From NCBI GenBank assembly GCA_012845835.1, contig JABAKD010000013.1:15421016-15485015 (forward strand): DNA of 64,000 bases, read 5' to 3'. Source of the DNA: Undaria pinnatifida. Lineage: Eukaryota > Sar > Phaeophyceae > Laminariales > Alariaceae. Shown here one piece after another: positions 12,901 through 62,415 of the stretch (position 1 is its first letter; every line of letters starts with the position of its first letter). The notes under the pieces are model-generated. The model searched no databases. It had not been told where the DNA came from and saw nothing but the letters and a program-made list of their open reading frames with translations. The position numbers and the translations under genes were made by a program.

Positions 12901-15900
12901 TGTGCAAGACGTCGTCCTCCGTATCAACTCTTTTGTCCACGAGGTTTGACGGGTTTGCGCCAGAGGGTGGAGCTCTTGTCTTCGACATATTCATGCCCAT
13001 CAAAAACCTGGCAACGGTAGTCGGCAACAGAATCACGCGTCAAACAATGTGGGCGCCAAACGTATGAACGATCAGCATTGAGGTAGGCATCAAACATACT
13101 GGGCAATGAACGCACGGGCGGTCAGCAGTGCCGAAAACAATCGGCAGAATGCCCATCGAAAACGCTGCTCGCACAAGCAAAGGCATTACAGTATGCGAGC
13201 ATAATCACGCATCATAGCGGGCAATACACACCGAAGGGAGGAGGCATTCCATCATCATTGAGGAGCCGCCGGAAGCGATGATTGCAGGCCTGCTACAAAC
13301 AATTCCTTGTATGTACCAATAGAACGCAATGGACGTAGGGTTCTCATTACATGGAGTTTAAACTGAAACCAAACCCCAGTCAAAGCGCATCTATTTCGCG
13401 GACGACAAACAAGCATGGGGGTTGGTTGTAACTACATACTTCGTACTAATATGGCAAAAGGGAGACGACGTGATGATGACTACGATAATCATTACCATGG
13501 CAGCGTCCTCACATTCGCTCATCTCCCTGATATCTAGCCCATGGTCGCAAAACACCCTGAAAAAGCGCCCGGGTGGGATACAAAAAAAGTGTCAACACAC
13601 AACGGAACGGTACTACATCCTGCGGTATACCATCCCGTACCACTCGCAAACCAAATACTTCAAAGTATATCAGTGGTCCCTCCACAGTGCCGGCTGAGTA
13701 GCGCCGGTTATCCGCCATAGTGCCTGTGCAATTGCCGGGCACATACGGGAACAACTAGCAGCAGCAGCATGCGGAGTAGCGCCGGTTGCAGCTACAGTGT
13801 GGGCCTTTCCGGCTGGCACATACCGGCGCAAGAGAGGTACCACTACTGTATATGTATGGACGGTCAGCGTTGCTGAAAATGCTTGGTTTCGGTATATAGC
13901 CTTCACTCCCACGACCCTAACCGTACATACAGGACGCTCTCACCTCCGGAAGGTAGCGAGGGCGCCCCTCCCTGCCCTTCCGTCATCGCTGTCGTTGTTC
14001 ATGAACGCCTGGCACTCCAAAGTGTGCCCGCCGAACCCCTGCCAATCCGAAGCCGAAAGCATAAACTATTAGGAGCGAATGCGACTTTCTGATTTGCAAG
14101 GCGCTAAAAAAATACGAACCCCTTTTGAGATCGTCGAAGCCGGTTTATACCTTCACCGCCGCTGCCACCGACCGAAAAAGAACGCACACAAATTGACGAC
14201 AGTTACAAATACCATTCTGCGAGATTTCTTAGCTGCAGCTGTACTCTCTCGCGTCTAGAGTGAGGGTAATTCACGCCCCTTTAGCCGCCATTTTTTCGAG
14301 GTTGCAACAGCTGGCTAGTCTGTCACGTGCACGCGACGAGAACGCTTTCTAATGGGGCCGTGTTTCCACGTCGCGAGTATGCGCAACACGGCAGAAAGCC
14401 AACAAAAGGACGCCAACTGAATAACGCCGCGACAATTACCAGCCCAAAAGGTGACGATTGCATGGCCTTCGAACTCCGGGGCGATAGTCTAACCCGACCT
14501 AACCTAACCTAACCCAAAGCAAAGAGCCAGTGGATGACACTACGTGATGGTGGTGAAAAGTGCAGCCCGGCAGCCCACCAGCTTAGTGAGCAAAAATTGG
14601 ACACGCGACAAAGCCAATCGGCGCACTAATGTACCGCAACCTATAGCAACAGCATCGCGACAGCATCTGCGACACAGCAAAATACTTGCCTTCACGACAT
14701 AGCCTTCTTCCATACTCTTCCAGCTCCAATGCAGCCGCGCATCCGCCGGAGTCCAAGCCTTAACCTGCCGGACCAAAATGAATCAGGTCGGAAGCGGCAC
14801 GGACAAAAACACATTGGACGTCAAAGGCGAGGGAGAGCACCGAACGTGGCAGAGCACCTCTCTCCGAACTTCCTTAGCAGGAAAATCGGTGGCAATGGAA
14901 CATTACGTCAAAAACGAGGGGGAAACCGAAATGCCAAAGCATCCCTCTCCAAACTTCTGTGGTAGGAAAATCGGTCACAATGGAACATCCACCCCGCGGC
15001 CTGGTTCGTCGCTGACCCAAAGCACTTACAACACATTCGGTGGGGTGGTTTGGTCAGGATTTTGCGACGGCATTACGCAGGGAGACACGTTTTATTCGGG
15101 TCGTCACCATGCCGCGCCATCTCACCGTCAACGTCCACACCCTCTGTGGCAATTGCTCGTTCAACAAGATCTGGGGAATAAGATTAAGATAGCATTGTTC
15201 AGAAATATCTGGGGGGTAAGATCATTAGAGTATTGTTCTTACAGTGGAGGATAAGATCAAAATAATCTGGGAGGAAAGATTAACACAGTATCGTTTGAGA
15301 AAGATCCAGGGGATAAGATGGAAGGCAGTATCGACCAGAAAGATGGTGGGGAAAAGACCAACGCAATATCGTTCTGGATGATCTGTGGAATATTAATAGA
15401 ACGTCGTTCAGAAAGATCTGGGCCATAATAGCAACGAAATATCGGGTTAACTGGTGTGAGGCGCCCGCTACATAGTGTGATCGTCACCAACAAATCGACA
15501 ACCATCGTAGGTAGACATCCACGCTGGCAATCACCCTGGGAATGTGACCCCCGACCGAGTTTTGTTTGGTGTTGTGTCCCAATCTACCTGTGGACTCCTT
15601 GTGCCTTGCGCCTTTTCGTGACCACCGACTAGACCGTGGCAGTGAGCGATGCGAGATTGATCACAACGGCCCTGGTGCGCCAGAGTAGGCTTTAATCACG
15701 GGCGCCACGATCATCGAAAACGTGTGAGGAAGCTCACCTACCTCTGACTCTACCCCTAACTTCTCCAGCACAACCAAGCAAACTGAACGCCTCACGCTGG
15801 GGCGAAACAGGTCGTGGTGTGTGCTACACCACTACGAGTGCTAAAGGGCGTACCTCGGGCAAGGCGTCTGATGTGGGCGCCATAAAAGCCTTGAGGATGT

Positions 15901-18900
15901 AGACGATGTCCCGTAGATACCCTAGCTCGGGGTAAACATCGAGAAGCTCGGGATTTTCACCGCAAAGATACAGCCACGGCTCGTTTCGGGCAAATCCCAT
16001 CTGCAAGCAAATCTGCAAAGGCACGCATGCAGCGAAAAGACAAATATACAAAAACGAGCACGTGCTGAATCTTTGAGTTAATAAAAAACGATATTGTCAC
16101 CGCAGAGATACACCTACCGCTCGGTTCAGGCAAAGTCTACCTGGAAGCAAATATGTGGGGACACGCAGCGACACATCAAAAGAGTAAAACGAGCACGTGT
16201 TGACTATTTGAGTTCGCGCGGCGACGCGATCAAAATAAATGACATGAGCACGTGTCGAATATTAGAGTTCCTGAAAGCTTGCGCCACATGAGTGCCAGGG
16301 TGGGTTACACTCGCCGAAAACGTAGGCATTGTCAGGGTTGTGTTTACGCGAGCACGTGCTCACTATTTGTGTTCATGAAAGCCTGTGTCGCACAGGTGCT
16401 ACATACCGTGGGCTACACTCGTCGACACTTGGGCCTTGGTAGGCGTGTGTTGCCGACGAGACCCCGCCCGTGAAACACCGAGATAAAAACGCAGAGACAG
16501 AGGCAACAAACCTGGATACGAATTCGGGGTGAAATGCCGTAAGCGCAAAGTCTTGTGGCCTCAGGATTGAGGCACCAAACCTCTCTATGCAAGCGTTTCA
16601 GGTTCTGACCCTATGAACCCTTTTGAACTGCACCCACAATTTTGGGGACAAACGACTGTAGTTTGAAGTAATGTAAGAAGGCGATTGTCGAGGCATTCGC
16701 AAAATAGGTATAACGACAGCACGGCGACCATGATGAAATGACGCCACCATGCGCTAGAATACCACAACAACGCAGGGCGCGCTGTTCTCACTCAAAGAGA
16801 GCACGCCCTTCGGCGAAACAGAGCTTGACCTTAAGTCATCAGCCTAGCACGGTGTCGCACGGCAAAAGATTATTATCCCACCCCGAATGGCTAAACGTTC
16901 ACAATCCGAAGTGGTGCACCTGCTCCTGTAACCCTTGCATAGGCTTCAAGAGTGATGATATTTTCACACAATTAACGAGTAATTTCCCTGAAAAGTCAAT
17001 GGTCGCAAAAAACGCTGAGCACTCACCCCGGTGGGAGAAAAAAAATGAGCGAAAAACTTTACGCGCAACGCAGTTCCAACCCGAAAGGGCCGAAAGGGGG
17101 CGGTGCTACGGGTTGTTGTATACTATCCCGTATCACTTCAACACCAAACAATACCAGGAAAATAGTGACTGTACGTACACCTGAAACAAATAAATAAATA
17201 CATACAAGTTCTCCCTTCGGAGGTCAAAATATGTAAGGAGGCAGAAATGCTACGAAGGCAGAGTAAAAAGTGAGCGTAGAACCCAAGAACTACTAAACAT
17301 GAACAAACGTAGCATTAGCAGGGAGCGGGGAAGCAGAAAGTGAGGAGAAAATAAGAGAGGCAACCAGACCAAAAGAGGGTGACGCAAGAAAAGAGAGCGA
17401 AATCATATGTATATACGCCTCAGTAGTATCATTAGTAGTAGCACAGCAATACCGAGGCAGTAGCAGCAGAAACTAAACAGGAGCAACAGACCGATACGAC
17501 AATGAAGAGAGCAGTTAGTTAGTGTAGTAAGTGGATGATTATTACTGTTGTACAAACACAAGTAGCTTTAGTATGCATTAATAGGTAGCTTCGGGCTCCT
17601 ACGCCAATATTTCAATGCAGTTGTTACATGTGCTGCAATTGAGGCAACCCCCCAAAAAATGTTAACAATCAAAGATGTAGTTGTATAAGAAAAAGTAGAC
17701 AGAAACATGTAGTAGGGGAAGGTGAAGTGAGGGCAGACGGCTACAGACCGCAGGAAATATTCTAGATATGTCGTGGAAGTAGCACAATTAGTATGAGGGA
17801 AGACAATAGAAATGCGCAGTCTTCGGAGGGGGGTACGCAGCGATTAGAAAAATAAGCAGGTCATGAAGAAAAAAACTCCCGTACAATACGTACAGGTAAA
17901 TCCAATTGCGCACGAAGAAAGATGTTAAAATCAATATTAAGGCGCAGAAGAGGGTGACGCAAGAAGAGTAGAACAACGTACTACGGTTTTTTTGTACGTG
18001 CACTTTGCTTGTTTTCGTAGGGAGAAGAGTGTTCCATCGTCCCGACCCTGTTTAAAAAAATATGTATGAATGCATGTATTCACAATTCTTGTAGGAGCAC
18101 AACAACTTATCACTTTTTTCGTACAACCACCATACGGTCGTAGCGCATACCAGATACCTTCAAATGGCGGAGAAAGAAACGCGAAAAAAAGCAAAACAAA
18201 CAGTGAACATATCGTCAGCAGGAGCAAGCAGCAGCAAACAATCCTCGTGCGGTTTTTGGAAGAACCAGCACAGACCGGGGAGAAACCGGTATACTGAAAC
18301 CAAGTAAAAAACAGACCTATACTATTTTTTTCCATCTTACGTACCATGTACGAATGAATATCATGCTTACTTATGGGCAGAATTCCAGCCCCAACTGCTT
18401 GTTAGGTGTTATACAGCTGTTGTAGTGGGGGACTCCCAATAGTGCTGGTTAAACAGTGCCACTGATCTCTATAATGCCGGCGAAAGTAGCACGACTGGAA
18501 ATCTTCATACAAACAATGCACAAATGTATGAAAGCCCTACTGTAAATTGTGGTGGTGTCTCGAAGAGTGCCGGTATATCGGGCTGGCACATACCGGCAAT
18601 ACCATGTGATGCTGTCTTGAGACGCGAAAACACACACATGTGCACCCCAAAAAAAAACGCATCTTCTGTCAGTCACAGACACACCGTGAAGCAGCAGAAC
18701 AGCAGCAGCACAGCTTACGCTATACCTACAATGGGACCCGAAGGGTGCGCCAGCTAGCGTTGGGCTGCGAAAGCAACTGAGTTAAATCGACACACGACGC
18801 GTATGAAAATACGTGGAAGTGTGGTGAGCTAAAGCTTTATTTTTCCCCATCCGCCGGAGGACAAAAAAAAAAAAAAAAAAAAGCAGCAGCAGCAGCACAC

Positions 18901-21900: not shown

Positions 21901-24900
21901 TTCGGAAGGGGTTAACGAATAGTCTAAGAACTGATCCATCGTTTTCGGGGATACATTAACTACGAAATAGTACGGGATCGTTAACGGAGAAGCGAGAGGG
22001 TTACGATGGAGCGGAAATCTATACCGACGCGAAGGATGCGTCACACGATCAGATTCTTCAAGTTAAGTAATGCTCTTCAGAGGCCGTGCGACAAGGGAAA
22101 CGAGAAACCGCGCGCGGACAAAGTTCTGCATGACGGCCGATTACAGCGGCGAGGCAGAGGGAATTCATGTTTACTCATTAGTCGTAACCCTTTTAGCACT
22201 GCACTAACTACAAGTACGAGGTCGAGGCAGAGAAAGCTTACATTTGTTTTTATCCTTTTGGTACTGTACTCCCAAAATGGGGACAACGTACTTGGAACTC
22301 GGGAAAATCTTAGGAAAACGAAAGGGCTTAGGACCGATGGGTATAGTTGAACAATGCAGTCATAAAATGCGAATCCAAGACTGGATTTAGCTAAAATATC
22401 CGATGCACAGACAGTGGTATAAAAGGAAATGAGGCAAAAAATGCCGACCAGCATTCTGAAATGGCCGAAATGCTGCTTTTTGGTTCGAATCCCAAGGGTG
22501 CATTCGATTGCCAAAATGCCCATCAAAATCCCCAAGAAGTTACCCCGCCTTCACAAACCACCAGCACCAGCAGAGGGCATCAAGAACCTCAGCCGCGTGC
22601 GTGGGTGACAGTCGAGTATGTCCCATTACGATAGCTCAACGATGGCAGCGGTCCTGTCCACTGCAGCAGCCACCTTGGCCAGCTTGCAGACGATGAGGGA
22701 GGGCATGGCTGCAACGTTTGCTGAAGAGCCGGGTCGGGTGGTTCGGGCGCGGATGATGATGGGAGCTAGGTTTGGAGAGCGAGTTCCCTACTGGTGCACG
22801 CGACGCCGCACATCGGGACTGCGTTCCCTTCACACTGAAGGTACGGTTGCCTTTGTAGCCGGGTCCCGTTGACAACTCCGTGTGCTTCTTGTGTGTCATC
22901 GAGCAGCTTGAAGCAGTAGCAGCCCCACGGTCGAATTTTGGAATAATTTTTGGACCCTCTTGCATATTTTGACTGCTGCTTGCACTATACCTGGTATAAT
23001 AACGATTTTTGGGCTCGTGGCTGCTGCTTGTACTCTATACCTGGTATAATAACGATTTTTGGGCTCGTGGCTGCTGCTTGTACTCTATACCTGGTATAAT
23101 AACTTTTTTCGGGCTCTCGTCTGCTGATTGTACTCTATACCTGGTATAATAAAAAAAATTGGGGTCGTGACTGATGCTTGTACTCCATACCTGGTATAAT
23201 AACTTTTTTCGGGCTCTCGTCTGCTGCTTGTACTCTATACCTGGTATAATAACTTTTTTCGCGCTCGCGTCTGCTGCTTGTACTCTATACCTCGTATAAT
23301 AACTTTTTTCGTGCTCGCGTCTGCTGCTTGTACTCTTTACTTGTTTGGCGCCGATCTCTTTGCAGCTCAACGCTGCCCACGCCAAGGGGAGTGCCTGGTA
23401 CACCTTCAGCGCTTCTTGAGACATCAGTCTGCCACCAAACTTTTTGCTCACTCGTGTGAGCGCACATATAAAGTCCCCTGAGAGCTCCACCGGGAGCACG
23501 GGAACCTGGGACGTGTATGCAGTCCTGCTCGCCATCTTTGGAGTTGTTTGACGATCGCGAGTAGGTGCTCAGTTGGTGCTTGGTGGAGTTTTTGGACTGT
23601 ACGCTGACCCCTCGTACACAAGCCTTCGTAGTTTTGTAAGAACCAAAAGCATTTGTCCACTCTGGGATTTCGTTGTATTATACCAACGTCCAGCAAATCT
23701 CTCTTCGGGAAAATAATGCCAGGCGGCGAAACAAAATGCAAGTAATCATTCGCATTCGCATTTCCTGCCATACCCATCGGTCTAAGCCTTTTACTAAAAA
23801 GCAAACATGATTCTACACTATTTCCAGGCGGTTTCTACCCAAAACGGAGGCACACATCTTAAGGGGTTAATATGAAGCGGAAAGCTGTACTCCTCGACAC
23901 CGTCGCGAAAAAATGCGCCACAAGATCAGATCGCGCGAGTTTAGGATGCGTTCAAAGGTCACGCGACAAGCGAAACGAACACAGAGGCGAGCAGCTTCAA
24001 GACTGAAGCGAGCGGGTAAAATTGCGCGCTTTTGGTGCTCGTCCGAATCCGAACCGCACAGAAAAAAACGTCGCCAACGTTATCCCCGCAATCTTGCCCG
24101 CGAAAACGTAAACCCGCAATCCTACACGCGCAAACATTGCACGGCATCAAGACTGACCAGCATTCGGAGGATGTGCGATTGTGTCTCGTATCGCATAAGC
24201 CTGCCGTCTGCCTGCCAGAAGCACTCGATCGCAGACCGTGGGGACGCGTTGGGTAGCGGCACGGGTATCACCTGGACGGGGATAGAAAGGAAACGAAACA
24301 TGCGAGGAACATGACGAAATACGGCCAATCAGCGATTAAGGGCGGCCAAGCGCGGAAAGCACTGGGTGCAGTGCCACGAGGCATGGATTCACGCATGGAT
24401 TCACTACAACTGAACCCATGCACGTTTACCATGCACGTGTATCATTCACGGTTACCATGACGGAGTATCCGCATTCCGCGAGGGTAATCGCAGACAGAGC
24501 TCGCCCCTAAGCTCTACTCGTAAGACCAGGGAGTAGAAGCAAACTTAACAGGGAGTTGCAGCAAACTTAAGAGGAAGTTGACGCAAAGCTAAAACGTCCA
24601 ATTCTCCTGTGAACAAAATCTGCGTCGTTGCAGAGCTCGCCCCTAAGCTCTAGGATACGGGGGTTGCGCCAGCTTTTGCACTTACTCTGGTGACGAGGTG
24701 CGTGATGAGCGACGCCCTCAAGAAGAAGGTGTTCTTCATCAATCTCCGCTGGTTCGATAGTAGCGTGCACACCTCGCACGCGCGGGTCAGCGTATTCGCC
24801 ACGTCCTCAAAGGTTGACACCGAGTCGGGCACCAGGGTGAGCTCCACCGGTCGCAGGATGGGAGGCGGCAAATGCTCCTGTAAAACATACAAAAAAATAT

Positions 24901-27900
24901 GCAGTCACGACCAAAGACGTCAAGAGACTGCAATTTAGGCCTATGATAGCAGGATGGCTAGACGTAACATACTAGTTTTAGCGCTAGATCTCCAGAAGCC
25001 TTGACTGATGGCGCCCGACACTGCCGTCTCCGGACAGGTTTGGTCGCGGCAACCGATAAGAAGCCAAGTTGTTGACACAGACCCATGTCATACCAGGTAT
25101 AATGCACAATATGTATAGAGATGATACCGCAGACGGTGCTTCAGGCCGAGTCAGGCACAAAGGTAACCTGCGTAACCTGCACCGGTCGCAGGATGGGGGG
25201 CAACACATGCTCCTGTCTCGGTAAAAAAAATCAAGAATGCAGTTTCGAGGACCGATAGGAGGCTAGGTGACGGACACGCACCCTCAAGAATGCACTCGCG
25301 ACGACCGGTAAGAGGCGAGGTGACTGAAATGAACCTTTGCTATACGATACAAGGTTTCCCTTCGGGATGTGGGCAACGTGAAATCCCGGGGGCGTCGCAA
25401 GACCAAAAGGGAGACACCGGTAACACACGTACCAGGTATACATGTTTTCCCACCTATAATGGTGTTACGAGTACTTACATAGATAAACCGCACTGCTCTT
25501 CTTAGAGGAAACGTGCGGCATGAGCTAGTGCATTGCCCCAAAGAAAGAGTAGTAGTAGTAGTATTCATCAGCGGGAACAGTGTGATAGCGGTGGGTGCAC
25601 GTTGTACTGATGTACGCGGAAACGAATTAGTAGTGGTCAGGGGATGCTGTGTACCGTACGTGGAATAGTGCCCGTTGCTATATAGTACGTCGCATGTGTT
25701 TGCACTTGGTGGTAATGGATAGGGATGACCAGCCAATGCCAGTCGCTCTTGGGTGTTGTACAATAATTAGTTGGTTGGCGGCAACAATTTCGGTATGTGT
25801 GGCGAACGTGGTGGGATTTTCCATGAGTTGGAGGTAGCGTTCAACGCTTTGGTACTGTGTGTTTGAGGGGAACCGAAACGTTGATGTACTCCTCGTTTAT
25901 CCCCGTAGAAAGTAGAGCTACTGATCGATAGTGTTCCCGCCTGAACCCGCCACTACTTGGTGCATGTGGTCAGGAATGTATAATTGTACATGACATGTGC
26001 GTACGATGATATCAACACGCCTAGAACTGATCCACCCAGCCAATCAGACGGCGTCCTGGGCGCGTGGCGAACGCTAAAATAGAACTGTACCCGATTTTGG
26101 CCACAGCAGCACCGTGTATATACCTGAGTTTGGCTATCGCTAATAAGGAGTTATATATCTTTGACTCCTACCCATGGTTCCACTCTGCCCAACAACAAAT
26201 ATTTGGCCTGGTCGAGACTCGCGTGCATGCTGCGCTCGCGATGCCTGTCACCCTCGACGCGCTCGGCGCCATCTTCAAGATTTCCCCGCTCTATGTCCCT
26301 GCGAGCCCCGGCTCCCGCGTGGAGAGATGCAAGCCGTGCCCTGTGGCGCTCGTCAAACACTCGGCTGCTCCCGGCCTCTACCTCCCAGTGTCCGCTTGCT
26401 GGCATCCGCTCTGTCCGGAAACATAATGCCGGGATATGTATTTTTGTTCAAGTAAAAACGGTCCTTACATTCGGACACGTCTGGTTACCCCGCAAAAGAA
26501 ATATAAACACACCGGGTCAACCACGCCCACAGACGCTTTCGCTTCTGCCTCGACGAGCGGCCGCCCGCGCGGTGGGAGAGCGCAGGCCGGTTTACCCTTG
26601 TCTGCACCCATGCCCACGCGCCCACGTCGAGATCCGGGGCCGAAAGGGCCCAGGGCGGCGCGGCCCCAAACCCCACACTAATCCGATCCACATGTATACT
26701 GCTGCTACTACTGCTGTATGTTGCTGATACTGCTGCTGCTGTTGTGCTGCTGAGGTAAAATTTAAGTCTGGGCGGTTGCTGCTACTGCTGCTGTGCTGCT
26801 GCTGCTGCTGCTGCTGCTGAGGTTTTAGGTTAGGTGATGAGTAGCGGGCCATTTTTGTACGAACAAAAAACGAAGTACAAAAAATTGTAAAAGTTTACCA
26901 AAATCAAATTTCAAAAACAATTTGGGGTGTTCCAAGTGACCTGCTCGACTCAGGGAGGCGGAACGCAATCCCTTGCCAAATAGAGCCAGCTAAGCGACGT
27001 TTCATGCGCATCGCGCCGCCACGGAGCTCGGCCGAGATCCAGACATGCTTCACAATGTACCCATGGCAGGCTAGCTTGCCCCGCGGCCGAAAGTGCCAGA
27101 AGAAACACTCGGCCGCCGGAGAGCAGCGAGTAAAAGAAAAACGAAGATCATATTATACAAATACCTATAAAAGCCAGAAGGTCTAGAGGTCATACTACGG
27201 ACTGTGTTTCAGGCCGAGCCAGGCACGAGGGCCCTAGGCCCATACTGCCCTATAATGATCATCACACCCGCTTAAACCTGCCATGCGTTAAACCGAGGCA
27301 CCCCTCCTCAGCCGCCCCAACCCCATCCCTAACCCTAACCCTAACCCCATAGCGTATTTTTGCTTACCCCTGCCATGTGCTCCACCGAGGCATCCCTCCG
27401 TAGCCGGCCAAACAGCGGGAAAACCGTAGACCAAGGCGTTTTCTCCGGGTCAAGCTCCAGGCTTAACGGGCACTTCTGGAATGCCGCGTTACTGCGGCTC
27501 CCCGCCACCGTCAATGCCTCCACCGAACCCTGCACGCTGTCCAAGGTCTCCTTGATAGCCTGTGGCGGTTTCGAGCGGGGAGAATCATAACAAGGAAACA
27601 AAAAGCCAGTTGTATTAGACGGGACCTTGAGGTGGTCTACTACCGGAATGAATTATCGCAAGAATCCCAGGTTGTTTGTCGAATGGAGGGAGTCATAGTA
27701 AGGCAACTAAATATTGTTTGTTACAGACGGATCTACAGTAGTCAACTACGGGCATGATTCCGCATTAATTCATTGTTGTTGCCCACATTTACCGGTACGA
27801 GAGAAGCCGTTTCAATGCGTCCACTAAAAAAACACCCCTATCCTGCAAACTGATATGTCCAGCCAACTTAAAGCTCTACTGGAGATCACCTTTATCTCGG

Positions 27901-30900
27901 CCTCGGTTGTGTCCGCCCCCGTCGCCAGTTTGGAGGCTGCTTTTGCCACGGTTCGACAGGCAAGCGTCAACGGCACAGCGTCGTTATCTCTGATTTCACC
28001 CCCGCCGCTCTCAATGTCTCCTTGCGCCATCCGGAGCATCGTCCACCGCAGGTGGACAGTAGTGCGCTTCGCCTGAGGCACGAGGACAAAACGTTAGGAG
28101 AGGGCGAGGTTGAGCCAAAACAACCACTAAGGCCTACCCGGTATCATTTACTACTCTGACACAGTCCTGCACTCTAAGGATCGTTTAGGTATCAAAATGA
28201 ATACCGAACGGTTCTAGCATGTCCGGACATAATGCATCGCCCTGCGGTTGGAGCCTGCATGCAGGACCACGGGACATGAACACCTCAGGCGATATAATGC
28301 ATCGCAGTCGGCCACCATTCGACGAAGTCCCTACACACTCAAAAGGAACTTGCCATATTCCAGCGAAACTCTAACGGTACCGTGCGTGTTCAACGCAGAA
28401 TGAAAACTTTGTATCGCAACACTGGAGTTAGAGGAATATCACCCGCTGACACCTACCAAACGCCCCACGGCGCCAAAATACCTGGTGGGCAAAAAACAAA
28501 ACAAAAAAACTTGCGATGAAACTAGCCCCTCACGAGCAACTCTAGCCCCTTACGGCGAAACCTAGCACCTTACACGACGACGTGATTTTTTCCGGCTAAG
28601 TGTCGCCCGATGAAAACTAATTCCCAGCGCATGTTAGAGGCAACAGTAGCAACGGAAGAACGTCAGCCTTGCCCGAGGCGGCGCGACAAGGGCAATGTAA
28701 GTCAGTCGAGGGCACCTTTCCACTTAATCACCATCGCTGTCGAACGTTACTGTGTCCGATACAAAGACAACCAGCCCCAACCCCAACCCTTAATCCAAGC
28801 CAATTAGTAGTGCTGTAGTCCAATAAGCCAAAGTTTAGGGTAATAATAGTCCTCTTTGTCTCGTACACAGTGTGCGTCAATCTTTCTGTTGAATACCGGT
28901 AAGTGGCAAGGTCCACTGAGTCGGTCAACCTTACCTGGGGCGCGGTGAGTCCCAAAAGTTGCAGACAGTGCCGTGACGCCTCCCACAAGATGCGCGCTTT
29001 GGACGGGTTGCCCCCTCGTGGAGAAGTCCGAAAGCAGATGTTAGACTGCGCACATTACGCCAAAACAGAAGAACAAGAAAGCACGTCAAAGGAAACAGTA
29101 GACAGACACGCACCCCGCCGAAATTTTCAGCTCTTCCTCGAGACATACCTGGTACGTCGACCAGGGGAAGAGGGGAAGTCCGAAAGCACGTACTAGCCTG
29201 CGACATAAAAGTAACTAACACATTTTAGGGGGGTAGTTCCCTCAAGAGCTGACCGGGTGGGAATTATGCCGAATTTGACTCGAATAAAGGTCAACTATTG
29301 TCTACCCCTCCACATAGTCACATTCGCACTGAAAAACTATGTAGCCGGGTGGAGATCGAGAGAAAACCAAACCGGGTGCGCGACAAGCTGCTTGCGTAAG
29401 CGTGCGGGCTGGGATCTGCCGGTAAGGATTTTCGGGCCCTGAAAAAAAGAACCTGGTGCATATTTCGCCTGAAACTGCAGCTGTCCCTTGACCAAAAGTC
29501 GCCAAGCTGGTCGAGAATTTGCTGCGGGAACCCTCCGGGACGGACGACGATGGCATTATGTGCACGTAAAACGAAAACCGTCCATTCTTCCGCCAACATA
29601 GCGCGGACCCTACCCTTTCCACATCATCGAAACGCCTAGGGGAAAAACCATTCTTCGACCCTACCCTTTCCACATCATCGAAACGTCTAGGGGAAAAAAA
29701 GCGTTCATATCGATCGCAGTCATGTAGACTTACAGTACGAAGCTCCCCTGCGGCGTATCACAAAAATACAATTCGCGCTTTGCATGGAACGCGGTGGGTA
29801 CGGGTTTTTCGGGAAAAGCCCGCCGGCATGTTAGACAGCAACAAGCGAGACTTACGTCCCCCTCCCCCCATTTTTTAGCTTTAATCATTTTTTCAAGTTT
29901 CAGCTCAACTCTTAATATATTCAGTTTACCCTCAGCGACCTTCTGGACAAGCGGTGGTCACAGGCGTCTTCCCTTCTTCCCCCCGGTACGTGCTTTCATT
30001 TTTATCGAGCACGGGGTTCATTCAGCATTCCCAATTAGCTTTTTATTCTCGTCGATTCTCCTCGAATTTTGCGAACTCACGCTCTCGTGCTTTCCGATCG
30101 TGATTTTTTCGCAAGAAAAAGTTTCTACCAGCACGAGTGTGCACTCGGTGAGACGTGAGACTTCAATCCGCGACCTTGACGTTAGTGTTAGTAGTGACCA
30201 TACTACACACCTAATATTAATAGTCCATGGGGGACGGTGATAAGTAGGGCAAGCTGAATGCAAGGCGGTAATGACCTAAACAGCCGTTACACGCATACGA
30301 ATTCCTTAAAACCGGGGTTCGGGGCCATTTAAGGAGGGACACACAGCATGCTAGGGAAAGAAGGGAAGTAAGGCAAAGTCTAAGCCAAGGCATTGCGTAA
30401 GGTACTTAAGGCATGGAAGGGCCCGTTAAAGCACACGCTTCAAGTGGTGCCTTAACCCCTACCAGGTGTTATTTCCCTGCGGTATGCCTTACCGCGCATG
30501 ACCGAACTCGCCGAGGGCGTGTCTTAACGGGCAAGGCTGACAAGGCGGCGAGCACTGACCTTTTTGGACAGGCCCGCCGGCACGTTCGACAGCAATGGGC
30601 GGGAGTTGAGGTAGGGCAAGAGTCTCTCGTACAAGTGCTTCGGTCCGTTTTCCGGTCGGGCGTGCACCAGCTGCCGGTACGCCAGCGTCCAGAACGACGA
30701 GTCACGGACGCGATGGCCAGGTATGTCGCTCAGCAGTAGCGACGCCACCGATCTCATCTGCACATCGCGTGTTCATCAGGGTGGTATTGTATAATTCAGC
30801 TGAGATACATGCTTATGATCTGAGATACATGCTTACAATCTGCACACGGCGTAATCAACAGGGTGATAGGATGCAGCTGGAATACGTGGGAATTATCTGC

Positions 30901-45234: not shown

Positions 45235-45966
45235 GTCTTAGCCTCATTGCGTGGTGTGGGGGAATCTATAGCCTCATTTTCGTTTGTTTCGAATCGCCGC
45301 ATCTTCGATCCCCTATCCAACTTCTGGATGTTTTGTTGATATCCTTTGATTACCATGCGGTCTGCATCTACGGCTTTGCAGGGTGGGCCAACGTTATGGA
45401 GTGCTCTCCGTAGATGAATAGTATATTTGACGTAAAGCCATGTCATGGTTGGGGTGAAACCAGGTGGCATAGATGCCACAGTCACGTCTACGCCATTATA
45501 GATGGACGAGAATGTAAGTGACGGTGATAGTCCAGGCAGGACTCCCCACCTTGACACTGCCTGTCCTATACCCTTCCTTTAGAGTGGTGATAACGTCAGT
45601 GTCTTAGCCTCATTGCGTGATGTGGGGGAATCCATAACCTCATTTTAGTTTGTTTCGAATAGCCGAATATTTCATCCCCTGTCCAACTTCTGGATGTTTT
45701 GTTGATATCCTTTGTTTGCCATACGGTCTGCATCTACGGCTTTTCAGGGTGGGCCAACGTTATGGAGTGTTCTCCGTAGATGAATAGTATATTTGACGTA
45801 AAACTATGTTATGGTTGGGGTGAAACCAGGTGGCATAGATATCACAGTCACGTCTACGCCATCATAGATGGGCGAGAATGTAAGTGACGGTGATGGTCCA
45901 GGCAGGACTCCCCACCTTGACACTGCCTGTCCTATACCGTTCCTTTAGAGTAGTGATAACGTCAGC
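45235..45966. repeat. 366-bp tandem duplication
   Basis: GTCTTAGCCTCATTGCGT begins at 45235 and at 45601, and the copies stay alike to TGATAACGTCAG at their ends. By eye they differ at about one base in fifteen, so the event is not very old. No coding signal or family recognised. Confidence 0.88.
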
Positions 45967-51190: not shown

Positions 51191-51199
51191 TAAACATCG

Positions 51200-51570: not shown

Positions 51571-51771
51571 CACCAGCCTAAGAGTAGTCACATGACTGAG
51601 TAGTCTATTTTAGTTGCCTATTGTAATGGTCATATTACTTTTGGCTCGTGGATACAACAGCAGTAGTACTACATACCCCGGTACGTGGTACCCAACAATT
51701 GCTCTTCGTACCGTTTCTCCGTACAGCATAAACGGTCGCCCGCCAACAAGACGGACAGAGCGTCTAGGAGG

Positions 51772-51897
51772 GGACGTGCAAAGGTCGCAAGCAGAAGCGG
51801 CAGCCAGGAAGACTTGGCGCGCACGGCTGAGACCTTCAAGAAGTTTACTACTGAACCCGAAGAAGATGACAGCTACCTCTTCATGGGGGCAACGGCG
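51772..51897 (+). CDS. Possible upstream exon of gene 2
   Basis: Open plus-strand segment encoding GSQEDLARTAETFKKFTTEP and EEDDSYLFMGATA, followed by GTATGT at 51898, a good donor. Composition (Ser/Glu/Asp rich) suits the N-terminus of gene 2, but its end phase does not match the acceptor I prefer for the next exon, and no ATG is placed. Tentative. Confidence 0.25.
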
Positions 51898-52577
51898 GTA
51901 TGTCTCAATCCAGGAAGCCATGTATGTCACTTACGGCCATAAAGAGCGCGACACGTTTCAATTGAGGTTTGCGCGGCACTTCGGATTTGACCAAAGACAA
52001 CCAACGCCTGTGGCTTGACATTGAAATGCTGTGGACGTGCGTGTTGCGTGTATCATGCAAAGGGGGCGCGCACGTTCAATACATAAAATGTGTTCAGCCT
52101 ACTGCGCTGTTTTCGTTGCTAAATTTCTACAAGCGTGCATAGGTCAACCGGCGTTTTCCTCGATGTAGACGCGATTACAGCTTCTACGCCACAAATCCTA
52201 GGTAGCGATGACCATTGGACGGCGATCGTTCACCGGATACCTCCCTGGCATTGTCCCCCCCGGTACAACACCTTCGGTTTGGCGGCATTGCTATCGACGA
52301 GCTTTTCCCTGGTATTGACCAACACAGGACCGCATCCAAGTTCATTGAGAGTACTCTCTGTCAGATATAACGCTTTTAACATGTTATCTATACGTATGGC
52401 TCGAGCTGGTTACCTATACGGATCCATATTGTACCGGCACCCTCAATCGAGGTACATAACAACTGCTCCCCCCACTGCCTGGTTGGTGGAAACCCGACGT
52501 TCTCCACCCCTCCCCCATTCATCGACCCCTCGTAAAGGGCACTAAAGGAAGAAAAAGCGGCGGGGGCGATGGTGCAG

Positions 52578-55065: not shown

Positions 55066-58000
55066 GTGAGTTGAAGGCAAGATGCCAGGTATACCTGATC
55101 TGTGCAAGGGGAGAAACAACGATGATCTACCGAATTAGCACCCACAAACAGAGGTTGGAGCTGCACCTTGATACAATATGTAATACGGCGGTAATCAACG
55201 TTTTGCGGGAATGCTTGACCCTCAAGCTTTGTACTACTGCGAAAGTTATCCCTCGCTACATCCAAGTGGTTTGTCCCCAAAAACGCGTGTGTGGGTCTAC
55301 AATGATTGGGACGCACTTCTCACAAGAGGCGTATCATGGGCGCTCGGGGATTGTTTTCGACTCAGCGGAACGTATAGTATGCGCTTGGGATTAAGCGTAC
55401 AGTAGGCGCTTGGGATTTGTTTTGGACCGAGCGTAATGTTGACGATATCGCGTGCCCTGCATTGATGCGAACTTGTGGTCAGATGAGGCTGGCATGCTTG
55501 TTCAGCTATTTATATTGCATTGTGGGCCGGGTGATGTTGGATATGTTATTTTTGTGCAATGTTTAGAATGCATCAGTTGTGAGTTCGACCGATTGAGTGA
55601 TCGATACTCAGCTTTGCAACCTGCGTTATATGCCGGCCGCACGTGTTCGGTATTCCTAGGGCCCGTATCCAGCAGCTGGAAGTGGAGGCTGCGGGAAACG
55701 CGTCACGCCTGGCGGCGGCGGAATCTCGAGCTGCATCGGGCCGAAGAACGGAGCAAGAGGCGTGCCTTACTAAAATATCAGAAGGGGAGCGCCGACATCA
55801 GGTGTGCTTGCGGCAAGAGGCGAACGGGGGGGGCGGGGGCGGGTCGGGCGGGTACTCGCTTGTTTTTGCCTGAGTCATTTGACCGTTGACCACGCATCCC
55901 TTTCGAGATGGGACACCGTTCCTACTCCTAATAGGGTCACCTCCAACATTTGGACACCCATTCCGTTTCTTCCCTGCTTTAAAAAATACAACTTTTTTGC
56001 TTGTCTTATCCGGGCGGGAGGGGGGGGGCGTACTCATGCCATGCATAGCCGTAGTCTTAAAACCATAGACCCTCGCATCCCTACAATGCCGGGATGGAGC
56101 ATATCGAGTTTTCATTGAATAAGCAGGCAACGCGTGCACTAAGCACGAAGCGCTGTGAGATGTTCGGTGAGTCGCATGAAGGGCTAGCTTCATCCTACTG
56201 AGAAACAAGTGTGGGGTGGCCTCCCGCATCTTGTGCGTATGCGTTCTTTCTTGCGTATGGAGGACAGATTCGAATTAGTTTATTTATTTTCTTGTGTGGC
56301 CGCTTCCAGAGACAGCAGCGGGGATACTATGTAACTGCCTCGTGGGTGCGTGATATATGCACACTACGTAATATCATCCCCCTTACGCGAAATTAAGATT
56401 CTGCACTCCCCACATCAAGATCCAACTCGACCACCATCTCGGTTACGGCAAAAAATATATTACGAGAAAAGAAACGGTACCCTGGTGGTTTAGCTCGCGT
56501 ATCGAGAGGCTTTTTTCAGCGTCGTTGCCAGCCGACGCTAACCTCAAAGGGGGGGCGAGAGGTGGGGGGGGAGTACTCATTTGTTGCTTGCCCTAGTTAT
56601 TTGACCATTGACCACGCATCCCTTTCGACACGGAGCACCGTTGCTACTCCAATAGAGACACCTCCAACATTTGGGTGCTCATTGCGCTTCTTCCATATAC
56701 TACATAGAAAATGTTTGCTTATCCTACCCCCGTCCTATCCCCGTCCTGTTTTACCGTCTGCGGCCACCATCTATCTCCTAGAATAGCGATCGTTTTCTCG
56801 CTACTCTTTAGCCTACCAAACTCTTCCATGTCACTTACGTCTAATTTCCCCATCTCCTCTAACACATCCCGTTTCTCCTTGTATATTTCACATTCTCCTA
56901 CTATGTGAGTCCTACTCTCTAATGTTACGCGACACGGGCACATATTTGAAGCCACGTCCTCCTCCTCCCGACTACTGGCATTTCTATTTCTTCTTTCTGG
57001 TAGGTCCAGGTCCCCTACACGAAATGCAGTTTCAGCTTGTTCGTTCAGTCCAATGGGCCGTGCAGATACGTTCTCTTTCCAATATCTTCCCTCAACTCCC
57101 CGTATATCTCTAGGTGCTTTTCCTCTTTCAATTTATTTCTCAGCGCTTACCTTCCTCTTTCTTCTATTCTCTCTTTTACTTCTGTCTTGTACCCGCCAAA
57201 CTTCTCTATAGACAGTACCTCTTCTTGGTCTCCCCCTATATATTTTCATATTTTTTCGACTACATTATCCCATCTTGTTCCAGCTCGCCCTTTTGTTATT
57301 TTCTCCCACAAAGCATTGTCAAATATGGCTGGCAACCTCTTTTCTGGCATATTTTTTACTTTATATCGCCATTTCAACTTTCTCGCGTCTCTATTTGTTT
57401 TAAGCGGGTACATTCCTAATGCTGCTCTTAATACTGTATTAATCGTCGTACTTGAGCATCCTAGTATATTTTTAGCTGCCGTCATCTGCACTGTGTCCAG
57501 TTGTTTTACGAACTTCGCGTTCTCTTGCCATACTTGTCCTGCATACTCCAACTTTGGTACAATCACATTAATCAGAATACATATTTTAATCGTAATGTCA
57601 AGGTGCGGGCCTGTTAGGACCGCATCCATCTTTTGCCTATTTGTGACTAACCCTTTCCTATTACTTCGCTATGTGTGCATCCCAAGAGCAGTCCTGTGAG
57701 ATCGTTACGCCAAGGGGGGCGGGGGGGGGATACTCATTTGTTGCTTGCCTTAGTTATTTGACCGTTGACCACGCATACCCTTCGAGACGGAGCATCGTTC
57801 CTACTCCTAATAGCCTAGTAGAGACACCTCCAATATTTGGGCGCTCATTACGCTTTTTCCATATACTATATAGAAACTGTTTGCTTATCCTATCCCCTTC
57901 CTGTTTCGCCGTCTGTGGCCACCATCAATCTCCTGGAATAGCGATCGTTTCCTCGCTACTTTCTAGTCTACCAAACTCTTCCATGTCACATTCGTCTAAT

Positions 58001-61000
58001 TTCCTCATCTCCTCCTCTAACACATCCCGTTCCTCCTTGTATACCTTACATCCTCCTACTATGTGAGCCCTACTCTATATTGTTGTGGCACACGGGCACA
58101 TATGTGCATCCACGTTCTCCTCCTCCCGACTACTGGCATATCTTTTTCTTTCTGATAGGTCCAAATCCCCTGCACGAAATCGCAGTTTCGGCTTTTTCGC
58201 GTAGTCCATTGGGCCGTGCACTTACGTTGGGGCGGGAGGGAGGGGGGGATATTCATTATAATGCATGGCCGTAGTCGTAAGACCATAGAAGCGGGCATGT
58301 CTACAATGCCGGGATGGAACGTCGGGTTTTCCCCGATGAGGCATAGACACTGCCTGTACCAAGCGCGAAACGCCGTGAGGTGGTCAGCGAGTCGCATGAA
58401 GGGTGAGCTACATCCTACTAAGAACCGCTTGTGGGGCTGACTTTGGAACCTTGAGCATACCTTCTTGCATATGGATGTTTGCTTGGGCTGACTTGGGGAT
58501 GAGAGCGAAAAACAACGATATGCTGTCTATGTCTATGTGTTATGCTCGATCGGCGTATCAAACCGTCTCAACTGCGATGCATTGTTTAATTGCTTGAGGC
58601 TTGAATATCCCCTGCAGATCTTCAGTCATCCGAATATCTCAGTGTTCGACGCGCCTTCCCGAGCAGACGAAAACTAAGCCGAAGCAGTACAACAGCAGAC
58701 GGTCGCAGGTGCACAGCTCCAGGGCTGCCCTATTAGAGCTGCAATGCTGTGTTTTTGCTTTATATAGGGCACACCGGTTGAGTCACATGCGTTAACCAAT
58801 TTGGAACCCTTGTCTAGCGACCAAAAAACGACGACTGCAATCGTGTCAAGGGCCTACTTCGGAGGGACATACTAGCCAGAACCCACAATATTGTATATTC
58901 CCCTGTTTTTATGGTGACCATAAGTCGTCCTGACCACTACATACAGTGCAGTAAACTCCCCCGTCTTTGGAAGAGCTTGCGACAAACGAGTACCGCTATG
59001 CTGTGCGCGTGTGGTACAGCTCCGTACTTTGCAGGTCGGGCGCACACCCTGCCCGAGCAGAAAGGCAGCTACTTCGTGAACCAATCACAATATGGATGGA
59101 CCCATAACTGAATGGTTGTATTCAAGAGTCGACCGCTCTTTGAGGCCGACTCGCCGTTTTGACCGGGAAAAGGGCGATGACTGGTCTGACTCCACCGTGC
59201 TGCACCTTGAGGCAACGGTATTTTTTATTTGATGTGTTGAAGGATCGATCGTGCTTTTCGACCCACTCGCCTTTTTGAATGAGATCCCGGCGACGACTGG
59301 CCTGACCCCATCGTGCTGCACCCTTGGCGATACAGTAGGTTGTCGTTTCTGAATAATGAGAGCCCCATAGCTGTTTCGACCTAATGACTAATTGACCTTG
59401 CTTTGCGTACCCATAGCTGTTTGGAAATACTGACCTTTTGGGCTTGTTTTGCGATCGACTCGCCCTCTTGAGTGCGGAACGGGCAATGACGGCCTGGCTT
59501 CATCGTGCTGTACCTTGATGGTTTATACGTTGTATTGAATAATCGACCTTGCTTTGCGACGTAACCGCCCTTTTGAGTGCGGTACGGGCGATGACCGGCC
59601 TGACTTTGTCGTGTTGCACCTTGACGCAACCACCTTTTTTGTTTTTCGTTCATAATGGGCAGAGTGACCTGCACAAGGCAGAAACGAGGCACCAAGAGAC
59701 GGTATCCGAGATGAAACGGCTACACCAAGAGGAAATAGAAGAGCTAAAACGAAGGAACGCTGATTCCAAGACTCTCGAAACGCTGGCTGGGCAGGTAACC
59801 TACGGAAGGACTAGCCGCCTCCCAACAATGCGTACATGTGTAAAGATTGATGCACGAAGCGCTTTAAAATACCCCGAGTTCGTCACAAGACTCTCGAGAC
59901 GATGACTAGGCAGATGGCCTATGTAACGACCAGCCACCCGACACAATTTGCCGATGTGCAAGGATTGACGCACGAACTGCCGTGAACTGCACGAGCTCGT
60001 CACAGCTCGCAGCAGCAGTTTGGCCAGGGTCGGGTACCAGCTGCAAAGACCTCTAAATCTAACACGTTTTGGCAGCAGCAAGTGACCGCCGTCATACTGC
60101 CGCTAACTCAGCCATCAGCTTTCAGCATTCAGCGACCCGCTGACGTGCTGCCTCACAGTCTAACACCAGTTTGCAGCAACGAGCGTCCCGCTGTCATGCT
60201 ACCCATGGCTCGAACATGGTGTTTTCCTCTCCAGCGTTCGTCGCGGGCTGATGCAGTGAAAGTTTCACACTTTTGTCGATCATGACCTAGATCGGGATGG
60301 GATCTGTCACGATCTAGATATTTTTTATCCAGATGACGATCTACTTAGATTGTCTAGATCCTGTATTTTCCGGTATGGAGTGCCGCCGAAGAGCCGCGTC
60401 ATCCAGATACTACCCGGCAAACATGTGCTCAAGAGCCGTGCTACACAGCTTCCGCCCAGCAAACATGACATATAGTAGATCTTGCAGATCATACAATTCA
60501 GGGATATTCTACCCAAGATCTAAATCGTTATATGGGGATCTGACCAGCCCAATGTTTGAAATATTTATATATTTCACATGTTTTCGCGACAGGCCGTGGC
60601 GTGTGTGTTGTAAGGTGCGTTCACACGCCCATGAAAGCGCAGGTTCCATGCAGAAGCGGTGAAAAGTTGTTGCGAGAAACGCATGTATGTCACATGTTTT
60701 GGCGACACGCCGTGGCGTGTGTTGCGTTTTGCGTCCATGGGCACACGAAAGCGCAGGGGTGCATTCGTAAACGGTGAGAACTTTTCTACAACAACACACT
60801 TATGTCACATGTTTTGGCGGCACGCCGTGGCGTGCGTTGTGTATTACATCCAAGGTGTTGCATCCCAGGTCCACGAAAACGCAGGGACTGTCAAGCATGA
60901 ACTAGATCGTTCAGGTCGTATAATCAGGGGTATGCCTGTCCCGAAATATCTAGATAGTTAAGTCGGCATCTGATCTGTCCGATTTGTGATTCTTGTCTTT

Positions 61001-62415
61001 AAAACGCATCCATATCGCATGTTTTGGCGGCGCACCGTGGCGTGTGGCTTGTGCTTTATCCCAGGTCCACGAAAGCGCCGGGGCTATGAAGCTCCTGCAG
61101 GCGGAGATGGTTCAACGGAAAGGCGCCTCCGAGGTGTCGAGGGAGGGGCAAATGGAGGCCAGGGAAAGGCTCGTCAAGGAGCTGGAACAGTCCGCCAGAC
61201 GCGCGCAGCAGGTCAATGGTTGATTAACGATAACTTTAAACGTGCTTCGTCGCCTCCACTGGTGACGTTGTGTGTATAGCACTACCCACTAGCCAACATG
61301 GTCACGTGACGTGCAGGCTATGATGGTGCTACGCACTACGGTATCAATACATATAATCACCAAATCAACATATAGAAATGGACAGAAATCACGCTGTTGG
61401 TACACAGTCCGACGTTGTCTCGGCTTGCCGTGCCGCTGGAGCGGAGGACTCTTGCCGCTGCACCTTGCGCCAGTATTTGACACAGGGGGAAATTTTCCCC
61501 CCTTAACAACGTTGATGTGTAGTGTCCGCCGCCATTGATAACGCTACTGGCCAACTTGTGTATAAATGTTCCACTGATCGGTTCAGGAGGGAAGGCAGCA
61601 CGTGACGTCTGTAAGCCGTCGTTGTTATTGTTCTCACATTATGTCAATGGCTACCCGCCACAGTCTAGTGCAGTCCGTAGTGTCTGTGCTGACTCCTGCA
61701 AATGGTGGCATGCCCAATGGCAAAAAAACCCCCGTCGTTTTCAGCACAGGCCACAAGCCCTGACCCAGGACGGGTTTTTAACTTGGGAGAGGGTGCATTC
61801 TACACTACCTTCAGTACAAAGGCTGCCGGATTTAATAAATATTTGTAAACATCGGTCTGCATTGAAATATCACCCTGATTATCATTAGGTGACCTGTGCT
61901 GTGTATTGACGTCTATCCGGTTCGGTTTCCTGCCTGCACCAGACGGCGGAGGACGAGGTCCAGCGCTTGCAGGGAACGCTGATGGCGATGGATCAGGTAA
62001 TAACAATGACAATGAAATCGATTTTAGGGGGTCACCCTGCTACCCCTGCCCACTGACATGCGGGTAAACGCCTAATACACTATGCCTAGCGGCTATTCAC
62101 AGATGCTCCAAGCATAATTATTACTCCGAGTATACTCGGGAGTACCGAGAGTATTTCGTACTACAAGTAGTACACCGAGCTTATTGCTGCCTCGATGATG
62201 CGAGGGGTTTCCGATTTGCGCTATGCGGCAGGTGGAGCAATATACCGCTGTGATATATTCCACTGTATGATGCAAGCGGGAGAGTTAAATTGTTGGTTTT
62301 GCCCTGTTGCCTCTTCACAATATTCGGGCCAAAGGTGATGCGGGCGCTGCGAGGACAGAACGCCGGAGAGAGGGAGAGGTTGAGACAGGAGCACCTCAGA
62401 ATGGAGACTCTACAG
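52578..62415 (+). CDS. FBF1-like: Gene 2: FBF1-like coiled-coil protein (partial; 5' exon unclear, 3' end off the right edge)
   Basis: Six exons on the plus strand: 52578-55065, 55660-55801, 59663-59794, 61065-61211, 61943-61996 and 62335-62415, in consistent phase. The first is an 830-codon disordered region rich in Ser, Pro, Gly and Asp with acidic motifs LLLDSDDSFG and DDDLGGLDALDIL. The rest are Gln/Glu/Arg coiled coil. FBF1 has just this plan: acidic low-complexity N-terminus with repeated D-rich LLxDDD motifs, then a C-terminal coiled coil. It sits on transition fibres (distal appendages) at the base of cilia and helps gate them. The match is by layout and motif style, so an unrelated coiled-coil protein remains possible. 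LINE debris fills intron 2. Confidence 0.55.
55066..55659. other. Intron 1 of gene 2
   Basis: Contains small direct repeats near 55310-55430 (GGCGCTTGGGATT and related), each about 30 bp. No exon seen. Confidence 0.5.
55660..55801 (+). CDS. Gene 2 coiled-coil exon
   Basis: Acceptor ATTCCTAG before 55660, donor GTGTGC after 55801. Encodes about 47 residues including ARIQQLEVEAAGNASRLAAA and LTKISEGERRHQ, a heptad-patterned coiled coil continuing the previous exon. LINE-tail sequence starts only 25 bp past its donor. Confidence 0.8.
55826..56010 (-). mobile_element. Truncated LINE 3' end (type I)
   Basis: Minus-strand LINE tail: 3' UTR with the complement of TTTGACCGTTGACCACGCAT and a C-rich 3' terminus. 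Cut off at its 5' side where the type II fragment starts. Confidence 0.7.
56011..56295 (-). mobile_element. Type II non-LTR fragment
   Basis: Starts at a G run (C tail on the minus strand) followed by CGTACTCATGCCATGCATAG, then shares CCTCGCATCCCTACAA, GAAGCGCTGTGAGATG and GAGTCGCATGAAGGG with the other two type II fragments. No coding region recognised. Confidence 0.65.
56541..57715 (-). mobile_element. LINE fragment: end of ORF2 and 3' UTR (longest copy)
   Basis: Reading leftwards on the minus strand: the part after the reverse transcriptase core (LEYAGQVWQENAKFVKQLDT and AAKNILGCSSTTINTVLRAA, 57600-57300), then a C-terminal zinc-knuckle-like CPCRVTLESRTHIVGEC followed by AILGDRWWPQT (56940-56720), then the UTR and C-rich end at about 56541. 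The endonuclease and main RT domain are absent, so it is 5'-truncated and dead. The LEYAGQVW and ILG motifs fit LINEs of the broad L1/Tx1 or CR1-Jockey type; I cannot pick a clade. Confidence 0.8.
57716..58228 (-). mobile_element. Second LINE 3' fragment (type I)
   Basis: A second copy of the C-terminal zinc-knuckle part and 3' UTR, about 90 percent like the copy at 56.54-57.1 kb by eye. Its C-rich 3' end abuts the truncated 5' end of that copy at 57715. Confidence 0.75.
58229..58535 (-). mobile_element. Type II non-LTR fragment, third copy
   Basis: Begins at GGGGCGGGAGGGAGGGGGGG then ATTCATTATAATGCATGGCC, with the shared CTACAATGCCGGGATGGAAC, GAGTCGCATGAAGGG and AAGAACCGCTTGTGGGGC blocks. 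It lies directly 5' of the truncated type I copy. Confidence 0.65.
59110..59645. repeat. ~100-130-bp repeat, four units, ending at the acceptor of the next exon
   Basis: Each unit carries CGACTCGCC-TTTTGA, GGGCGATGACTGG-CTGACT, TCGTGCTGCACCTTGA and a following T-rich block. Starts lie near 59125, 59245, 59445 and 59545. The last unit's T-rich part (CACCTTTTTTGTTTTTCGTT) serves as the pyrimidine tract of the exon starting at 59663. Confidence 0.75.
59663..59794 (+). CDS. Gene 2 coiled-coil exon (KRLHQEEIEELKRR)
   Basis: Acceptor AATGGGCAG before 59663, donor GTAACC after 59794. Encodes 44 residues: SDLHKAETRHQETVSEMKRL, then HQEEIEELKRRNADSKTLET and LAGQ. Strong heptad pattern. This is the part that most reminds me of FBF1. 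Its 3' end has a decayed tandem copy in the intron. Confidence 0.82.
59768..60005. repeat. Tandem duplication across the exon 3' edge
   Basis: CAAGACTCTCGAAACGCTGG and CTGGGCAG at 59768 (exon end) recur 118 bp on as CAAGACTCTCGAGACGATGA and CTAGGCAG at 59886, each followed by GACTAGCCGCC/GACCAGCCACC and GATTGATGCACGAA/GATTGACGCACGAA. The copy has lost its donor GT (GCAGAT) and reading frame. Confidence 0.8.
60470..61085. repeat. ~115-bp repeat spanning the next exon's acceptor, four units
   Basis: CACATGTTTTGGCGACACGC and CGTGGCGTGTG recur at about 60575, 60691, 60806 and 61017, each followed after 30-50 bp by CACGAAAGCGCAGGGG or a close form. In the last unit that block is the beginning of the real exon at 61065. 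The third unit also has CCCAG|GTCCACGAAAACGC, an acceptor-like copy, but its frame soon ends. A GATCT-rich block at 60470-60560 is copied at 60898-60980. Confidence 0.82.
61065..61211 (+). CDS. Gene 2 coiled-coil exon
   Basis: Acceptor TTATCCCAG before 61065, donor GTCAAT after 61211. Encodes 49 residues starting VHESAGAMKLLQAEMVQRKG and including RERLVKELEQSARRAQQ. Phase 0 in and out. Upstream acceptor-like copies could in principle be used by mistake. Confidence 0.78.
61943..61996 (+). CDS. Gene 2 short coiled-coil exon
   Basis: A 54-bp exon: acceptor CTGCACCAG before 61943, donor GTAATA after 61996. Encodes TAEDEVQRLQGTLMAMDQ. Phase 0 in and out. Confidence 0.75.
62335..62415 (+). CDS. 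Gene 2 coiled-coil exon, last one seen
   Basis: Acceptor GGCCAAAG before 62335, donor GTGGGT after 62415. Encodes 27 residues including GQNAGERERLRQEHLRMETL. The run of charged heptads ends at a donor, so further coiled-coil exons should lie beyond the window or in its last 1.5 kb, where I could not place one. Confidence 0.75.

Follow-up and report, generated by a model that had tools for sequence, protein, structure and literature searches.

Exon edges copied into neighboring introns of the kelp Undaria pinnatifida, probably by tandem duplication blind to splice sites

The window analyzed here is a 64,000-nucleotide stretch of one contig of the brown alga Undaria pinnatifida (positions 15421016-15485015), and genome searches were made against the whole assembly, which comprises 511,146,479 bases in 68 contigs. 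Two genes were modeled, one on each strand, with exon edges that are gene-finder predictions from sequence; the gene finder was trained on conserved introns of the same genome, and its recovery of 100 of 120 edges was measured on the very genes used for training and is accordingly optimistic. For gene 1, Pfam and PDB searches with single exons returned an SH3 domain (E = 4.2e-9) and nothing else. The joined predicted exons of gene 2 match Pfam FBF1 (E = 2.4e-6, 26.8 bits), under the curated cut-off of 45. The predicted edges considered below are 24877, 27368, 30560, 59794, and 61065, together with 16012, near which a second AG, at 16000, is an alternative acceptor in gene 1. Exon support is weak for two of them, with total scores of 1.1 (15854-16012) and 6.0 (59663-59794), compared with 12.3 to 31.6 for the other four edge-bearing exons.

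Repeats of several sizes accompany these genes. The gene 1 region holds a 50-base minisatellite of 7.4 units (22973-23340, 86% match), and a 366-base tandem duplication of 93% identity lies between the two gene regions (45235-45965). A predicted intron of gene 1 contains a 1.8-kb dispersed element (25340-27170), with long matches of about 82 to 92% identity on many contigs among the 40 of 1,797 candidates that were scored. A dispersed repeat of about 300 bases, SINE-like in size alone, occupies 29882-30186 (3,585 first-look candidates, of which 40 were scored).

The original prediction held that partial copies of exon edges lie beside their source at six or more places in the window, and self-BLAST recovered all six that it listed (Table 1). 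At a raw score of at least 20, the real window gave 64 pairs and five dinucleotide-preserving shuffles of it gave none. The paired arms align at 75% identity (raw score 52) at 16012, 82% (33) at 24877, 79% (30) at 27367, 71% (28) at 30559, and 72% (47) at 59794, while the best pair of the four-unit set inside 60567-61092 reaches 75% (82). Donors and acceptors are both affected, as had been claimed, and the introns do contain dead exon pieces and spare sites: an AG is kept at 16140 and at 60868, and the exon-derived part of the copy beginning at 16093 has acquired two in-frame stops. In two of the six the splice site is barely crossed, by 4 intron bases at 24877 and by 6 at 27367. The copies at 30542 and 29788 are separated by 754 bases, partly because the dispersed repeat of about 300 bases sits between them. 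Further predicted edges under a local copy were found at 55851, 21707, and 8908. When the window models are restricted to exons scoring at least 10, 5 of 42 edges fall under a local copy, three of them (30559, 27367, and 61064) named in the original prediction and two (21707 and 55851) additional.

Table 1. Predicted exons, source arms, and copies at exon edges in the window (positions counted from its first nucleotide).
Feature	Position	Strand	Basis
Gene 1 exon, acceptor 16012 or 16000 (two AGs), weak score	15854..16012	-	Exon model and sequence
Source arm over acceptor 16012/16000	15953..16079	-	Self-BLAST, alignment
Decayed copy of exon start and intron end; AG kept, copied edge 16140	16093..16214	-	Alignment
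More degenerate units running on into the intron	16152..16451	-	Self-BLAST
Gene 1 exon, acceptor 24877	24686..24877	-	Exon model
Source arm over acceptor 24877: start of exon and 4 bases of intron	24831..24881	-	Self-BLAST
Copy of the 24877 acceptor arm, 82% identical	25166..25216	-	Self-BLAST, exon model
Gene 1 exon, donor 27367	27368..27559	-	Exon model
Source arm over donor 27367: end of exon and 6 bases of intron	27362..27413	-	Self-BLAST, alignment
Intronic copy of the 27367 donor arm; TT at GT position	27270..27321	-	Alignment
Gene 1 exon, donor 30559	30560..30757	-	Exon model
Source arm over donor 30559	30542..30607	-	Self-BLAST, alignment
Copy of the 30559 donor arm; AC at GT position	29788..29853	-	Alignment
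Gene 2 (FBF1-like) exon, donor after 59794	59663..59794	+	Exon model, Pfam
Source arm over donor 59794	59767..59887	+	Self-BLAST, alignment
Head-to-tail copy of the 59794 donor arm; AT at GT position	59886..60004	+	Alignment
Gene 2 exon, acceptor 61064/61065	61065..61211	+	Exon model
Source unit over acceptor 61064/61065	61002..61092	+	Self-BLAST, alignment
Acceptor-unit copies 1 and 2, spacing about 116 bases; neither keeps AG	60567..60759	+	Self-BLAST, alignment
Acceptor-unit copy 3; AG kept at 60868, site score 7.5 vs 9.6 for the real site	60781..60896	+	Alignment
Additional predicted edge, donor 55851; copy at 56549-56729 (76%)	55827..56011	+	Self-BLAST, exon model

As controls we used two conserved gene families, chaperonins (PF00118, 57 matches) and kinesins (PF00225, 130 matches), picked before any look at duplications. 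The 38 gene regions fetched (281,737 bases) hold 57 of the 57 chaperonin and 83 of the 130 kinesin matches, and usable introns came from 31 of them. Each splice site was placed where profile positions, reading frame, and GT-AG scores agreed. A first mapping gave 67 introns, of which 58 passed on score and fit; with seven more mapped the number kept rose to 63, and one intron (L017), which accounted for one of 11 spanned edges, was dropped as poly-G, leaving 62 introns and 124 edges. Two of the kinesin genes (C2:16034374 and C2:16063521), 29,147 bases apart, score identically in all three of their listed exon matches, which points to either a recent duplication of the gene or a repeat in the assembly.

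Local duplication proved abundant in these genes and was mostly direct. The chaperonin and kinesin loci (252,231 bp) gave 259 local pairs at a raw score of at least 22, compared with none in one shuffle of each, and with the window included (345,737 bp) 338 pairs were direct and 23 inverted, both counted at one threshold. Across 287 control pairs, the median offset was 139 bases, the median arm 80 bases, and the median identity 77%; 8% were at least 90% identical, and in 90% of pairs the offset lay between 42 and 586 bases and the identity between 64 and 93%. Arms lay head to tail within 20 bases in only 43%, and in the remainder later insertions may have spread them, as at 29882-30186. Offsets below about 38 bases escape the self-alignment, which missed a perfect 26-base tandem repeat at 40338-40411; a peak in spacing at 40-56 bases was rejected as an artefact of the method, and no period is claimed. 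Detectable copies make up 18% of control intron bases, and the longer the intron, the higher its coverage (Spearman 0.44, P = 0.0003), as is to be expected in part because a long intron has more sequence to pair with. The presence of an edge copy did not go with significantly greater intron length (median 1278 vs 892, P = 0.094). At a chaperonin donor (L010, about 6170-6945 in gene orientation), an array of seven aligned copies with a spacing of about 83 bases runs through the next intron, the copies comprising up to the last 76 exon bases and 12 intron bases, with GT intact in four.

An edge was counted as spanned if a local copy covered 10 bases on either side of it. This held for 6 of 63 donors and 5 of 63 acceptors (11 of 126) before the poly-G intron was dropped and for 10 of 124 control splice sites (62 introns in two gene families) afterwards. 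A per-position null drawn from random intron points predicted 16.4 ± 3.2 of 126 (probability of a null value at or below the observed, 0.056). Because an event in the intron interior marks two intron stretches and an event at an edge only one edge, we judged this null too high for edges and therefore added an event-level expectation and simulations. The event-level blind null, built on 48 clusters, predicted 6.2 ± 2.1 spanned edges versus the 10 seen (P for a count this high = 0.067). Edge counts agree with the density prediction under both nulls, near the margin of each, and the two bracket the observed count, with neither a clear hotspot nor a clear avoidance at edges. The event-level count nonetheless leans above its blind expectation, and a modest excess is possible.

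The blind simulations rest on assumed lengths, rates, and constraint, and their outcome depends on them. The larger simulation left 74 of 840 edges spanned with full tolerance (10.9 per 124) and 32 of 840 with half tolerance (4.7 per 124), whereas an earlier one with other settings and full tolerance left 12 and 16 of 300 (5.0 and 6.6 per 124). Since the simulations disagree with each other, they discriminate only weakly between full and half tolerance. The observed 10 of 124 is about at or above the simulated counts, so no purging of edge copies is seen, and so few edges cannot fix its strength. The original prediction had proposed that introns grow by a special mode centered on exon edges; edge-spanning copies were not significantly more frequent than tandem-repeat density would predict, the outcome that it had itself set against the proposal, and this part is not supported. 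The rest fared better: the introns contain many short local duplications, some of these run across donors or acceptors, and spanned edges recur in unrelated conserved genes.

The explanation we favor, and consider likely, is that short tandem duplication that is blind to splice sites and nearly neutral lengthens introns and now and then copies an exon edge. Short-range direct duplication, probably the product of replication or break-repair errors, would strike without regard to gene structure. Where the duplicated piece lies within an intron, the intron would become longer; a duplication over a donor would place a second exon end with its site downstream in the intron, and one over an acceptor would yield the mirror image. 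If splicing stays with the site beside the intact exon, the protein would be unchanged and the change close to neutral, and the outer copy would be extra intron that drifts and at times duplicates further into an array. The repair mechanism, the near-neutrality, and the use of the inner site in the living alga are what we infer from sequence in this scheme. Source-copy alignments (28, of which 21 were from controls and seven from the window; they are not independent, seven coming from one donor and one being the poly-G pair later dropped) are identical at 994 of 1226 positions (81%) on the exon side and at 1135 of 1557 (73%) on the intron side, an asymmetry attributed to the fact that on the exon side it is mainly the copy that drifts. 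In the conserved genes roughly every twelfth splice site has an adjoining copy, several with equal site strength, and we tentatively suggest that copying a splice site together with some of its exon costs almost nothing here, that the exon-adjacent site still yields the conserved protein, and that sites would be chosen from the exon side.

Several other readings were weighed. It is very improbable that the copies represent a dispersed repeat or transposon overlapping exons by chance. Three of the arms do have dispersed or low-copy stretches nearby (25340-27170, 29882-30186, and 24901-25046). The first two turned up in searches with the regions 24780-27430 and 29780-30620, whose edge parts were then searched separately: within 24780-25330, the low-copy stretch 24901-25046 matches eight other places at 70-79% and lies outside the exon-start arm and outside the copy, in the stretch that separates them, and within 27180-27430 a 34-base low-complexity-like stretch (27314-27350) recurs elsewhere and overlaps the copy arm 27270-27321 by 8 bases. 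Apart from those 8 bases, the edge arms of the six window sites had no other genome match. Regions 60560-60900, 15940-16460, and 59740-60020 matched nothing beyond their own neighborhood, and 30500-30640 and 29750-29870 each occurred once, in a search that skips very common words and is to that extent not absolute. The same unit at many unrelated loci, as expected of a dispersed repeat or an introner, was not found for the six window sites, and the copies are local and mostly direct. For the window, the dispersed-repeat reading, which the original prediction had itself named as a possible refutation, is largely refuted. It is somewhat less improbable, although still unlikely, that exon edges are duplication hotspots, for example through transcription-linked breakage near splice sites, such that introns grow preferentially from their ends. 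The event-level count (10 versus 6.2, P = 0.067) tends in that direction, as does the excess of the observed number over the 5.0 to 6.6 per 124 of the smaller simulation; however, the larger blind simulation already gives 10.9 per 124, edges are covered less than the intron interior in the per-position comparison (11 of 126 vs 16.4 ± 3.2), and coverage does not peak at the edge. At donors it is 0.11 at the edge and 0.15 to 0.21 at 40 to 400 bases into the intron, and at acceptors it is flat, near 0.1.

Selection could instead hold the copies as functional alternative splice sites or exon ends, a reading we regard as improbable. Near-equal site scores are what might recommend it: a kinesin acceptor copy (L044, 3093-3289 in gene orientation), 136 bases upstream of the real site, is identical at 46 of 48 exon-side positions and scores 8.0 against 8.1 for the real site, and similar values were obtained for L040 (6.2 vs 6.4), for donor copies of L010 (7.0 and 6.1 vs 6.1), and for the acceptor-like site at 25212 in the window copy 25166-25216 (8.1 vs 9.3). 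A splice-site score of at least 5 persists in 12 of the 28 copies. Yet GT/AG is kept in 16 of 28 copies, where 17.5 would be expected from overall identity, so copied sites are lost no faster than by drift; selection against copied GT/AG was looked for in these 28 alignments and not found, and spare sites are neither visibly purged nor visibly retained. Splicing at any of the 14 control copies with intact GT/AG would cause a frameshift or introduce an in-frame stop. Moreover, related or unrelated to a duplication, an internal site at least as good as the real one exists for GT in 22 of 62 introns and for AG in 35 of 62, and intronic GT and AG scoring at least 5 occur at about 5 per kb each, as judged by a scoring matrix trained on those same introns. 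Since spare sites are common anyway, one more decoy should cost little, and this abundance may explain tolerance without any special device. Least credible of all is the Rogers model, in which new introns arise by tandem duplication of an exon piece bearing AGGT. Its mutational step is identical to ours and exon sequence is indeed present inside these introns, but it predicts that the donor flank of an intron resembles the acceptor flank of the same intron, and with 120-base flanks of 62 introns the best score, 12, equaled the shuffled maximum of 12. The sole higher score (102) belongs to L026, an intron of 138 bases in which the two flanks overlap, so that none of the 61 informative introns exceeded the shuffled maximum, the 62nd being too short; very old gains of this type would have lost their mark.

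Duplication of exon edges in the kelp is of a known mutational kind with a duller outcome, in that the exon stays, the intron lengthens, and a dead exon end remains. Zhuo and colleagues reportedly described, in 2007, human introns arising from tandem arrays with duplicated splice sites; the kelp resembles these in the tandem duplication of splice sites, and the human introns are said to be alternatively spliced. The original prediction knew of no standard description of genome-wide intron growth by such copies. That is too strong, since boundary-crossing tandem duplication (PMC4974935) and insertions by tandem duplication (PMC2374710) are both in print; searches of an open-licence library returned no account of genome-wide intron growth by exon-edge copies in brown algae. 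In the potato RdRp gene, a tandem duplication crossing an intron-exon boundary is reported to have made a new intron, and as in the kelp the duplication brings splicing signals along; there an intron was gained and the transcript changed, whereas the kelp genes, by sequence alone, have an unchanged exon and a longer intron (PMC4974935). One named way of gaining introns is the tandem duplication of proto-splice sites, with cases described in Drosophila, and it shares with the kelp local short tandem duplications in genes that supply intron sequence and splice sites; in the kelp, by contrast, existing introns grow, and no flank likeness was found in 62 introns (PMC2891723). In flies and primates, tandem duplication is described as accounting for most short insertions, and direct local copies likewise dominate here, although those are short indels and 90% of the kelp pairs are offset by 42 to 586 bases at 64 to 93% identity (PMC2374710). 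In the ROCO genes of brown algae, which have LRR exons in tandem and alternative splicing, exon-bearing DNA has also been duplicated locally; there whole in-phase exons are retained in the protein, whereas the kelp copies are partial exon ends whose use would disrupt the frame (PMC11378527).

The general claim draws on one genome, 62 introns, two gene families, and sequence data. What is new is a count for a brown alga, together with ready pairs for testing splice-site choice. The count gives a figure for how frequently neutral duplication hits splice sites in a brown alga with large introns, and it indicates that such hits persist. Gene annotators may take a warning from the window, where the gene finder mistook part of a copy (25168-25212) for an exon. 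Near-identical real and copied sites a few hundred bases apart amount to a natural test of discrimination by the splicing machinery, and the L044 acceptor pair is a good case for asking which site is used. If the more tentative reading, that copied splice sites cost almost nothing, is true, the kelp genome would be a natural experiment for exon definition, over choice by shortest intron or by site strength alone.
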